From Acidobacteriaceae bacterium (lineage in GTDB: Bacteria > Acidobacteriota > Terriglobia > Terriglobales > Acidobacteriaceae), in contig JAICMT010000002.1 of assembly GCA_025929125.1 (NCBI GenBank), positions 1 to 19,428 of the forward strand: a stretch of 19,428 bases of DNA, given 5' to 3'. The notes under the pieces are model-generated. The model made no database searches. It worked only from the letters and a program-made list of their open reading frames with translations, and had not been told where the DNA came from. Below are positions 9,300-13,679 of the stretch, one piece after another. Numbering within the stretch: position 1 is the first letter of the stretch; the number at the start of each line of letters is the position of its first letter. Both the position numbers and the translations under genes were made by a program.

Positions 9300-9374
9300 G
9301 GCGCGGTACCCAAGCGGTAAGGGAGAGGTCTGCAAAACCTTTATGCGTCGGTTCGATTCCGACCCGCGCCTCCA
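9300..9374 (+). tRNA. tRNA-Cys (anticodon GCA), island integration site
   Basis: Complete cloverleaf. Acceptor stem GGCGCGG pairs with CCGCGCC, the discriminator is T, and CCA is encoded (9372-9374). The anticodon arm AGGT-CTGCAAA-ACCT gives anticodon GCA (cysteine). From the anticodon arm onward the sequence is repeated at 13598-13643, so this gene is the attachment site of the downstream island, and the tRNA itself has been kept intact. Confidence 0.97.
9328..9373 (+). repeat. Left attachment repeat (within tRNA-Cys)
   Basis: A 46-bp stretch from the anticodon arm to the CC of the 3' CCA. It matches 13598-13643 in direct orientation with three mismatches, at 9339, 9350 and 9354. Confidence 0.85.
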
Positions 9375-12011: not shown

Positions 12012-12049
12012 CTCACTTTGGCTAGAGGTTTCTGATTTTGGCTGATTAG

Positions 12050-12063
12050 ATAACCGTGTCGGC
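12050..12063 (+). repeat. Left subterminal inverted repeat of the IS
   Basis: ATAACCGTGTCGGC is the inverted complement of 13407-13420 with a single mismatch (13/14). This pairing fixes the left end of the insertion sequence just upstream of 12050. Confidence 0.75.
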
Positions 12064-12082
12064 TCCAGTGCCGCCGGGTAGA

Positions 12083-12127
12083 CTTGGTTTGCTCAACGAA
12101 CCAAGGCTCGGAGGAGAGGAGCCGAGC
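12083..12127 (+). promoter_or_regulatory. Tandem hairpins over the transposase ribosome binding site
   Basis: CTTGGTT (12083-12089) pairs with AACCAAG (12099-12105). GCTCGG (12106-12111) then pairs with CCGAGC (12122-12127), leaving AGGAGAGGAG in its loop three bases before the ATG at 12130. The Shine-Dalgarno sequence is thus in a hairpin loop and part of the spacer in the stem, which could damp transposase translation. Confidence 0.45.
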
Positions 12128-12129
12128 AC

Positions 12130-13167
12130 ATGAAGATTGTAGGGTGTGATTTGCATACGCGCTACCAGCAGATCGCGATGCTGGATGAGGAGACGGGCGA
12201 GTTGGTTGAACGTCGCCTGGAACATGGCAACGGCGAGGCGAAGGAGTTTTACACCCATTTATCGGGGCCGGTGCGGGTGGGGATCGAAGCCACCGGCCAC
12301 ACACGCTGGTTCGAGCAACTGCTGGCCCAGCTGGGGCACGAGTTGTGGGTCGGGGATGCGGCGCGCATTCGCGCGGCCGAAGTCCGCAAGCAGAAGACCG
12401 ATGCGCGCGACGCGGCCTTGCTGCTGGATCTGCTGCTGAGCGGCCGGTTTCCGCGGCTATGGCGACCGGCGCCTGAAGAGCGCGATCTCCGGCACCTGTT
12501 GTGGCATCGGCAGAAGCTGGTGTGGATGCGCAACGCAATCGGCAATCAGCTGCATGCCCTGGCTATGGGAGAAGGGCTGTGCCGCAAGAGGCAGCTGTTT
12601 ACCAAGAAGGGGCGATGCGAACTGGAAGCTCTCCGGCTGGATAAGTGGGCCAGTAGGCAACGGCAAGAGTTGTTGCATATGCTCGATCAACTTGACGCTT
12701 CGCTGGCACAGTTCGACCAGGCGGTGAACGAGCAAGCCGCTGCTAACGGAGATGCGGTGCGGCTGATGACCCATCCCGGAGTAGGTCCGGTGACGTCATT
12801 GGCATTTGTGCTGATCGTCGGTCCGGTGGCGCGCTTTGAGCGCAGCAAACAACTGGTAAGTTATCTGGGACTCAATCCGTGCGAGCATTCCTCCGGCGGA
12901 AAGCAAAAGCTGGGCGCGATCTCCAAACAAGGTAATCCCATGCTGCGCGGTTTGCTGGTAGAAGCCGGACACACGGCGGCACGAATGGATCCGGAATTAC
13001 GGCAGGATTATCAACGACTCCGGCTGCGTCGTGGCGGGAGCGTAGCGAAGGTGGCGATCGCCAGGAAACTGGCGGTGCGCATGTACTGGATGCTGCGCCG
13101 GCAAGTGAATTACACGCAGCTGGTTCGCATGCAAGGCAGCTCGAGGGCCACCCTGGTGCAGCAGTAG
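12130..13167 (+). CDS. IS110-family transposase (DEDD recombinase)
   Basis: A 345-aa, apparently intact transposase. IS110 enzymes combine an N-terminal RuvC-like DEDD domain with a C-terminal Transposase_20 domain bearing a catalytic serine, and use a structured bridge RNA to choose target and donor sites. The acidic set is visible: Asp7 in VGCDLHT, Glu53 in GIEATG, and Asp91 and Asp94 in QKTDARDA. The C-terminal domain shows PGVGPVTSLAF (about 216-226) and LGAISKQGNPMLR with candidate nucleophile Ser265. The ATG at 12130 has AGGAG at 8 nt. No frameshift or premature stop is seen, so recent activity is plausible. Confidence 0.94.
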   Translation: MKIVGCDLHTRYQQIAMLDEETGELVERRLEHGNGEAKEFYTHLSGPVRVGIEATGHTRWFEQLLAQLGHELWVGDAARIRAAEVRKQKTDARDAALLLDLLLSGRFPRLWRPAPEERDLRHLLWHRQKLVWMRNAIGNQLHALAMGEGLCRKRQLFTKKGRCELEALRLDKWASRQRQELLHMLDQLDASLAQFDQAVNEQAAANGDAVRLMTHPGVGPVTSLAFVLIVGPVARFERSKQLVSYLGLNPCEHSSGGKQKLGAISKQGNPMLRGLLVEAGHTAARMDPELRQDYQRLRLRRGGSVAKVAIARKLAVRMYWMLRRQVNYTQLVRMQGSSRATLVQQ

Positions 13168-13406
13168 ATCACCGTTAGGCTGATTGGAGCGCCTTGCCTC
13201 CCCGAGCGGTCGAGGAGTCTGAACAACGAATCATGGTCGGAAGTTCGGTGACCGAATAGATGGCTGGTGGAACCGAGTGATCCACCGCAAGATTCTGAAA
13301 GCGGGCCTTGGTCGATGAGCGAAAAGCAAAAGCAACAACAAAAGCAAAAACCTCCCACGAAGGAAAAAACAAAAAACCTTCGACGGCAGGGGTGTCTCTT
13401 GACAAC
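13168..13406 (+). ncRNA. Candidate bridge RNA region of the IS (3' non-coding end)
   Basis: About 240 nt between the transposase stop and the right subterminal repeat, without a gene. It contains stable small hairpins: GGTGGA (13266-13271) with TCCACC (13281-13286) around a 9-nt loop, and CGAAGG (13358-13363) with CCTTCG (13377-13382) around an A-rich loop, plus an A-rich linker between. IS1111-type elements encode their bridge RNA in this position. No fold or binding loops were computed, so the RNA boundaries are unknown. Confidence 0.4.
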
Positions 13407-13420
13407 GCCGATACGGTTAT
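13407..13420 (-). repeat. Right subterminal inverted repeat of the IS
   Basis: GCCGATACGGTTAT, whose reverse complement ATAACCGTATCGGC matches the left repeat at 12050-12063 in 13 of 14 positions. Confidence 0.75.
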
Positions 13421-13463
13421 AGAGGGTGGCCCGAGTCTCTATACTCGAGCTGGGAGTGCCTAG

Positions 13464-13595
13464 CTGAAGTCAAAGGGCAACTGGACGCTCAAAAAGATAC
13501 AAAACGAACGTCTGGCGGGATTGCGCCTGTCGAAGAGCCTCTACCCGATGAGACTAGGAGAGGAGCGGATCGCGTACGAACAAATCGGTCTTTAG
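13464..13595 (+). pseudogene. Possible 3' remnant of a broken gene
   Basis: Between the IS and the right attachment repeat, one frame stays open for about 43 codons and ends in TAG at 13593-13595. It reads sensibly (NWTLKKIQNERLAGLRLSK, then MRLGEERIAYEQIGL). A stop lies directly upstream at 13461 and there is no good start, so it would be the tail of a decayed gene. I do not recognise the family. Confidence 0.25.
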
Positions 13596-13597
13596 GA

Positions 13598-13643
13598 GTC
13601 TGCAAAACGTTTATGCGTCAGTTTGATTCCGACCCGCGCCTCC
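13598..13643 (+). repeat. Right attachment repeat (partial tRNA-Cys copy)
   Basis: Direct copy of tRNA-Cys 9328-9373 with three substitutions. It starts in the anticodon arm, so it lacks the 5' half of the tRNA and cannot be functional. The CCA end is changed to CCG. Confidence 0.85.
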
Positions 13644-13679
13644 GCTTCTCAAAACTAGCCAGAGATTGCAGGAACTGAG

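Follow-up and report, generated by a model that had tools for sequence, protein, structure and literature searches.

The closest described systems are the IS1111 seekRNA elements, the IS621/IS110 group and ISPpu9. According to the available text of PMC11187229, elements of the IS1111 group have a 7-bp left and a 3-bp right extension (the 7/3 rule), ISPa11 targets REP sequences, an ISEc11 mini-element with 50 bp of the left end moved, and deletion of bp 1170-1374 of ISEc11 is said to keep the transposase gene (tnp) intact. The DEDD residues and S241 of IS621 are named in the accessible part of PMC11208158, and small RNAs that regulate the tnp of ISPpu9 are described in the accessible part of PMC8450116. 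The window analysed here, a stretch of 19,428 nucleotides, includes at positions 12043-13423 of the + strand a complete IS1111-type insertion sequence (IS) of 1381 bp. The element appears to carry a bridge (seek) RNA of about 180 nt (approximately 13131 to 13312), the 5′ part of which lies in the 3′ end of tnp. The features of the element and its flanks are as follows.

12037-12042, + strand: left target flank TTTGGC, outside the IS; 5 of 6 bases match the left target guide
12043-12049, + strand: left extension TGATTAG, 7 bp, opening with the core TG; right donor (RD)
12050-12063, + strand: left subterminal inverted repeat ATAACCGTGTCGGC, 13/14 identity with 13407-13420
12100-12110, + strand: tnp leader segment ACCAAGGCTCG, complementary to 13302-13312, just before a Shine-Dalgarno-like sequence
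12130-13167, + strand: tnp, 345-aa DEDD/serine recombinase with matches to PF01548 and PF02371
13131-13143, + strand: putative P1 5′ strand GCAAGGC-A-GCTCG, inside tnp, pairing with 13185-13197 with compensatory changes
13145-13153, + strand: putative right target guide (RTG) GGGCCACCC, tnp codons 339-342, reverse complement of 13424-13432
13154-13174, + strand: predicted apical hairpin of the target loop, TGGTG/CACCG, from structure comparison among relatives
13165-13167, + strand: tnp stop codon TAG, inside the apical hairpin
13175-13182, + strand: putative left target guide (LTG) TTAGGC and core TG, covarying with left flank positions -5 to -1
13183-13197, + strand: ATT and putative P1 3′ strand (GGAGC, GCCTTGC), from structure comparison among relatives
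13198-13217, + strand: predicted hairpin P2, CTCC/GGAG, from alifold of relatives
13228-13233, + strand: GAATCA, comprising the putative right donor guide AATCA (complement of TGATT, 12043-12047) and the PX 5′ strand
13256-13262, + strand: putative left donor guide (LDG) ATAGATG, identical to the RE-LE circle junction sequence
13266-13286, + strand: predicted hairpin P4, GGTGG/CCACC, from alifold of relatives
13291-13295, + strand: GATTC, putative PX 3′ strand, partner of 13228-13232
13302-13312, + strand: segment Y CGGGCCTTGGT, complementary to the tnp leader
13399-13404, + strand: TTGACA, candidate -35 box of a circle-junction promoter, from sequence
13407-13420, + strand: right subterminal inverted repeat GCCGATACGGTTAT, a single mismatch from the left repeat
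13421-13423, + strand: right extension AGA, 3 bp; left donor (LD) end
13424-13432, + strand: right target flank GGGTGGCCC, outside the IS; the RTG is its exact reverse complement

The ends at 12043 and 13423 were set by aligning relatives from different insertion sites. The 7/3 extensions of the IS1111 group were found at this boundary, which is backed by relatives with different flanks; the end parser used for the wider set of relatives demanded TGA at the element start. The 14-bp subterminal repeats fall within the 7-17 bp of the group, and the long non-coding region that the group has downstream of tnp is present, with 239 nt from the stop codon to the right repeat and 80 nt from the left repeat to the ATG. 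Features of the group also include a promoter arising at the circle junction, insertion free of target duplication, and an RNA that copurifies with the transposase and is required for movement. In 74 of 75 elements the sequence TTGAC occurs close to the right end. The bases adjacent to the IS, GGC and GGG, have no repeat in common, and uninterrupted GGC-GGGTGGCCCA sites are present in fetched loci. The target core in the window is GG versus the donor core TG, and relatives flanked by GGG likewise have no TG in the right flank.

The transposase has D7, E53, D91 and D94, and S255 within a GL-P----SG motif. These residues correspond to the DEDD set and S241 of IS621, S241 being S255 here; the alignments cover E53 (against ISCro4), D91, D94 and S255, and D7 was assigned from the motif alone. 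ISCro4 and IS621 are the solved relatives of the protein by sequence. Its length, residues and motif agree with those of IS1111-group transposases (330-350 aa, DEDD, GL-P----S(T)G), with D7 again by motif only. The original prediction of an intact IS1111-type element with a complete DEDD set, a C-terminal serine and a 13/14 subterminal inverted repeat was borne out, the ends, repeats, extensions and 345-aa ORF all being found.

One genome scan gave 15 loci with relatives. At the DNA level, partial matches included, 20 of 396 phylum genomes had relatives; at the protein level, 48 of 399 genomes of the class did (E up to 1e-90), as did 52 of 250 genomes of the family (E up to 1e-80), the own genome being counted each time. 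There is a near relative at 92% in amino acid sequence, and a DNA search in phages gave zero matches. There were 137 loci with a transposase match, 27 of which failed the end parse. The 110 that were parsed reduced to 89 distinct elements, then to 81 after dropping eight with a poor parse or incomplete RNA (L066, L081, L083, L089, L101, L104, L106 and L109), and to 75 after dropping six without anchors (L058, L086, L105, L107, L119 and L129). Right target guides were studied in the 73 elements with at least 10 right-flank bases and left target guides in a distinct set of 73 with at least 6 left-flank bases. Clusters were weighted or thinned in most guide and pairing tests, the crossed pairs of the LTG being unthinned, and the permutations retain column make-up, not kinship.

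The putative RTG of the window matches the right flank exactly (9/9). The 9-mer GGGCCACCC appeared in none of 20000 dinucleotide shuffles of the 66-nt region, and on the + strand of the window GGGCCACCC and GGGTGGCCC occur once each, at 13145 and 13424. When the region upstream of a TGATTGG motif was compared with the right flank across the family, the best antisense match had a mean of 8.55, versus 5.62 with permuted flanks, and guide and flank tracked each other with z = 18.2 (53 representatives). A score of at least 7 was reached by 65 of the 73 elements, the window included; 56 of these 65 matches begin at flank base 1, and the 65 right flanks form 20 classes (up to 3 differences). The best placement of the guide was entirely within the ORF in 59 of the 73 elements, spanned the stop codon in five, was past it in one and was weak in eight. 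Two of the 59 in-ORF placements (L065 and L158) have unusual spacing and may be due to chance. The closest relative fetched, L002, is among the weak eight: its RNA has an identical GGGCCACCC and its flank is TGGCCC without GGG. The guide lies past the stop codon in L018 and in L221, an IS1111-type element of a Klebsiella plasmid. A right guide downstream of the ORF was considered and rejected, since fixed- and free-offset searches from 10-12 nt before TGATTGG onward came back empty; the guide surfaced only once the coding region was searched too.

The putative LTG corresponds to the five bases before the TGATTGG motif. At least four of these five, wobble allowed, match the left flank in 59 of 73 elements, compared with 15.4% of crossed pairs, and the guide position had z values of 3.9 to 6.1 (61 elements). 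The window LTG, TTAGGC, agrees with its flank, TTTGGC, at 5 of 6 bases. For the LDG, the 4-nt guide and the terminal four bases match in 74 of 75 elements, wobble allowed (position z 5.4, 6.0 and 3.0). The order published for IS1111 elements, a top-strand match 5′ of the bottom-strand match, was found, with the RTG at 13145-13153 and the LTG at 13175-13182. The guides matched both flanks within the segments 12030-12060 and 13410-13440, where the original prediction had proposed to look for complementarity. A separate observation concerns position 13263 of the window and its equivalent in relatives: the base after the TG of the LDG shows same-sense tracking of right-flank base 3 (z 4.8-4.9), much as though the LDG were also reading the right-end junction before excision.

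The proposed RNA would consist, in order, of a P1 strand, the RTG, the apical hairpin, the LTG, the core TG, ATT, the other P1 strand and P2, followed by the right donor guide, a hairpin, the LDG, P4, GATTC and segment Y. The 5′ half of its target hairpin, RTG included, is inside the ORF (13131-13167). The compensatory changes show a predicted target hairpin that straddles coding and non-coding sequence, half each. Of its 16 pairs, 12 have changes on both sides, the double-change cells number 68 versus 18.3 in shuffles, and 98.3% of cells are paired, compared with 83.6% in shuffles (0/500 as high) and 36-50% when the 3′ strand was slid. These values are from 30 of 41 representatives (L018, L039, L059, L065, L085, L088, L090, L097, L151, L152 and L158 were omitted from the hairpin alignment), and they lean to good pairing because several of the omitted elements had a poor P1 match. 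When all 41 representatives were included, the P1 strands fitted their own partner above crossed ones with z 5.9. The stem types are GCAAGGC/GCCTTGC in the group of the window, CGAGAGC/GCTCTCG in a second group and GCGGGA/TCCCGC in a third. For the putative stem PX, with GAATC/GATTC, TAATC/GATTA and GCATC/GATGC as types, 45 of 60 representatives contain the exact partner, versus a mean of 18.5 on permutation, and the other 15 lack it.

Conserved structure across copies, which had been named as a check on the original prediction, was seen in the compensatory changes among relatives. That prediction had placed a candidate bridge RNA with discrete hairpins at 13168-13406, in a 240-nt gene-free segment. 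The kind of RNA appears right and the segment is real, at 239 nt from stop codon to repeat, but it holds only part of the RNA, which would start near 13131, inside tnp. The hairpins are backed by the relatives, but 13165-13316 folded alone does no better than its own shuffles (z = 0.14). A comparison of 12900-13500 with Rfam families (E up to 1) gave zero matches. Relatives translate the C-terminal tail of the transposase in two or more frames; its protein sequence is unconserved and the hairpin is conserved. Because the tail is unconserved as protein and the hairpin is conserved, selection on it probably acts on the RNA. In the 3′ tail of the element, an A-rich stretch beginning GCAAAAGCAACAACAAAAGC (window 13316-13378) is also seen in L027, L029 and L043, about 200 nt downstream of IS110-type transposases that are only 28-33% identical.

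Segment Y and the tnp leader are complementary in many relatives. The mean score was 15.16, versus 10.57 for crossed pairs (z 16.0, 62 representatives), and in a search of the whole RNA, 52 of the 62 best leader partners were 39-66 nt past the LDG anchor, i.e., at Y. Shuffling of the leader gave p up to 0.05 in 46 of the 62, the lowest attainable p being 1/101; the window element alone had p = 0.07. Several Watson-Crick types were found at leader-Y offsets -6 to -2 in 42 of the 62, which were picked for good duplexes. The leader segment (bases 58-68 of the IS) has a narrow distance from the IS start and an equally narrow one from the start codon (median 19 nt). Masking of the Y site raised the predicted access to the Shine-Dalgarno sequence in 4 of 50 cases and lowered it in 4 of 50, an inconsistent effect. 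Candidate roles of this putative pairing are translation control, RNA processing or a donor contact.

The IS is present once in the own genome, which measures 2.4 Mb at 63.6% completeness. In this incomplete genome the REP target GGGTGSCCC occurs 35 times, with the guide and the flank accounting for two of these, versus 31 for the reversed control. A REP-target reading holds, unlike in the own genome, for the 99%-complete genome G241, where GGGTGSCCCA is enriched (189 versus 8 in the control) and a related IS has eight or more copies, mostly at REP-like motifs; the exact 9-nt right target was present in six of the eight copies examined (L025, L039, L088, L094, L095, L096, L133 and L134). Other relatives (e.g., L021, L037 and L063) have the right flank GGGSCACCC, versus GGGTGSCCC in the window type; these are the same REP-like motif in opposite orientations, used by two IS groups. 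Elsewhere in the window, the 3′ end of a tRNA-Cys gene (9300-9374) is repeated at 13598-13649 (52 nt, 90%), 4.27 kb downstream. Between the repeats lie the IS and two ORFs, one with a Fic domain and one BrkB-like, an arrangement that resembles a small island integrated at a tRNA gene; the ORFs scanned there include no integrase.

Comparison among relatives showed the element ends, the guides and their order, the hairpin and the overlap with the ORF. The explanation that we consider very probable is that this IS1111-group IS transposes through a circle and that its placement depends on a bridge or seek RNA overlapping the 3′ end of tnp, the target hairpin of this RNA holding two guides in an internal loop. 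Following published IS1111 and IS110 work, the recombinase with its RNA would connect the circle to the target at the core; the circle intermediate, transcription, protein binding and strand exchange would be as in those elements. The locus could instead be a dead remnant whose guides are relics of a past insertion, as the single copy in an incomplete genome, the mismatch in the right repeat and the flank core GG rather than TG might suggest. We regard this as unlikely, given that the full-length ORF, the catalytic residues, both ends, both flanks and all four guides are there and that a near relative exists at 92% identity. Since the RTG segment is coding, its match to the flank might also be a by-product of the C-terminal codons, with no guide at all. 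That idea is hardly tenable: the segment varies with the flank over about 20 target classes, the tail occurs in two or more reading frames and is unconserved as protein, and in L018 and L221 the guide is past the stop codon.

The complementarity between leader and Y bears on two further readings. The RNA might chiefly regulate transposase expression, with Y pairing with the leader in cis or in trans and the guide-like matches being secondary. The strength of that complementarity and its several Watson-Crick types speak for such a role, as does the precedent of the ISPpu9 small RNAs acting on tnp (PMC8450116, in its available text). The covariation of guide and flank would nevertheless be left unexplained, masking of Y moved Shine-Dalgarno access equally often in either direction, and the downstream RNA of ISPpu9 is described in the same text as pairing with an antisense RNA, so we judge regulation as the chief function to be quite improbable. 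Y could also be a third donor contact, in which the RNA pairs with left-end DNA. Such a contact is compatible with a guide RNA overlapping tnp, and the complementarity and the narrow distance from the IS start would fit it; the distance from the start codon is just as narrow, and the ISEc11 mini-element moved with 50 bp of the left end, which would not reach the segment at bases 58-68 here (PMC11187229, in the accessible text). We hold it to be doubtful.

Returning to the guide RNA that overlaps tnp, we propose, tentatively and as a possibility short of an even chance, that a large branch of IS1111 elements in Acidobacteriota has had its target guide slide into tnp, so that retargeting rewrites the C-terminal tail, and that a third conserved pairing of the RNA, with the left end or leader, ties transposase expression and donor identity to the guide RNA. 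Half of the target address stored in the last codons of the enzyme would be an unusual way to keep a changeable target. In most of the examined elements of this branch, a look at the annotated non-coding region alone would miss half of the target guide. The natural guide-target pairs, with about 20 right-target classes in one IS branch, would be enough for a reading rule of IS1111 guides, and these programmable recombinases might be controlled through the leader-RNA pairing. The way in which a single stretch can be both codons and guide, and the way in which the RNA is excised from the tnp mRNA, are testable questions.

The kind of system is known already. In the literature searched (text only), no statement was found of a target guide inside a transposase ORF or of a leader pairing with the guide RNA; this is weak evidence of absence because figures, supplements and bioRxiv fell outside the scope. 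As far as the available text of PMC8450116 goes, ISPpu9 (Asr9, Ssr9) is likewise of the IS110 family, located at REP sites and equipped with an RNA downstream of tnp, and its small-RNA control is linked to the 5′ leader; the downstream RNA is described there as pairing with an antisense RNA, whereas here it is complementary directly to the leader. With the IS621/IS110 group, as described in the accessible parts of PMC11208160 and PMC11208158, the element shares the DEDD set and serine, four core-sharing guides, and target and donor parts. Unlike in IS621, the RNA is downstream, the guide order is reversed in both loops (right first) and the subterminal repeats are long; the upstream RNA with the left guide before the right that marks the IS621-like IS110 group was not found in this element. 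The Klebsiella plasmid element L221 (NZ_CP095146.1, 7/3 parse) has an RTG, TTTATTCA, of 8 nt and an LTG, GCTTTGTTG, of 9 nt in the same order as in the window, but its guides are 96 and 120 nt past the stop codon, and its leader-RNA complementarity is not significant (p 0.085). The closest likeness is to the IS1111 seekRNA elements ISEc11, ISPa11 and ISKpn4 (PMC11187229, in its available text), which have in common with the element a downstream RNA, 7/3-bp extensions, subterminal repeats, the transposase size, the GL-P----SG motif and the top-strand match 5′ of the bottom-strand match. Unlike in those three, tnp here contains the putative RTG and a strand of the target stem.
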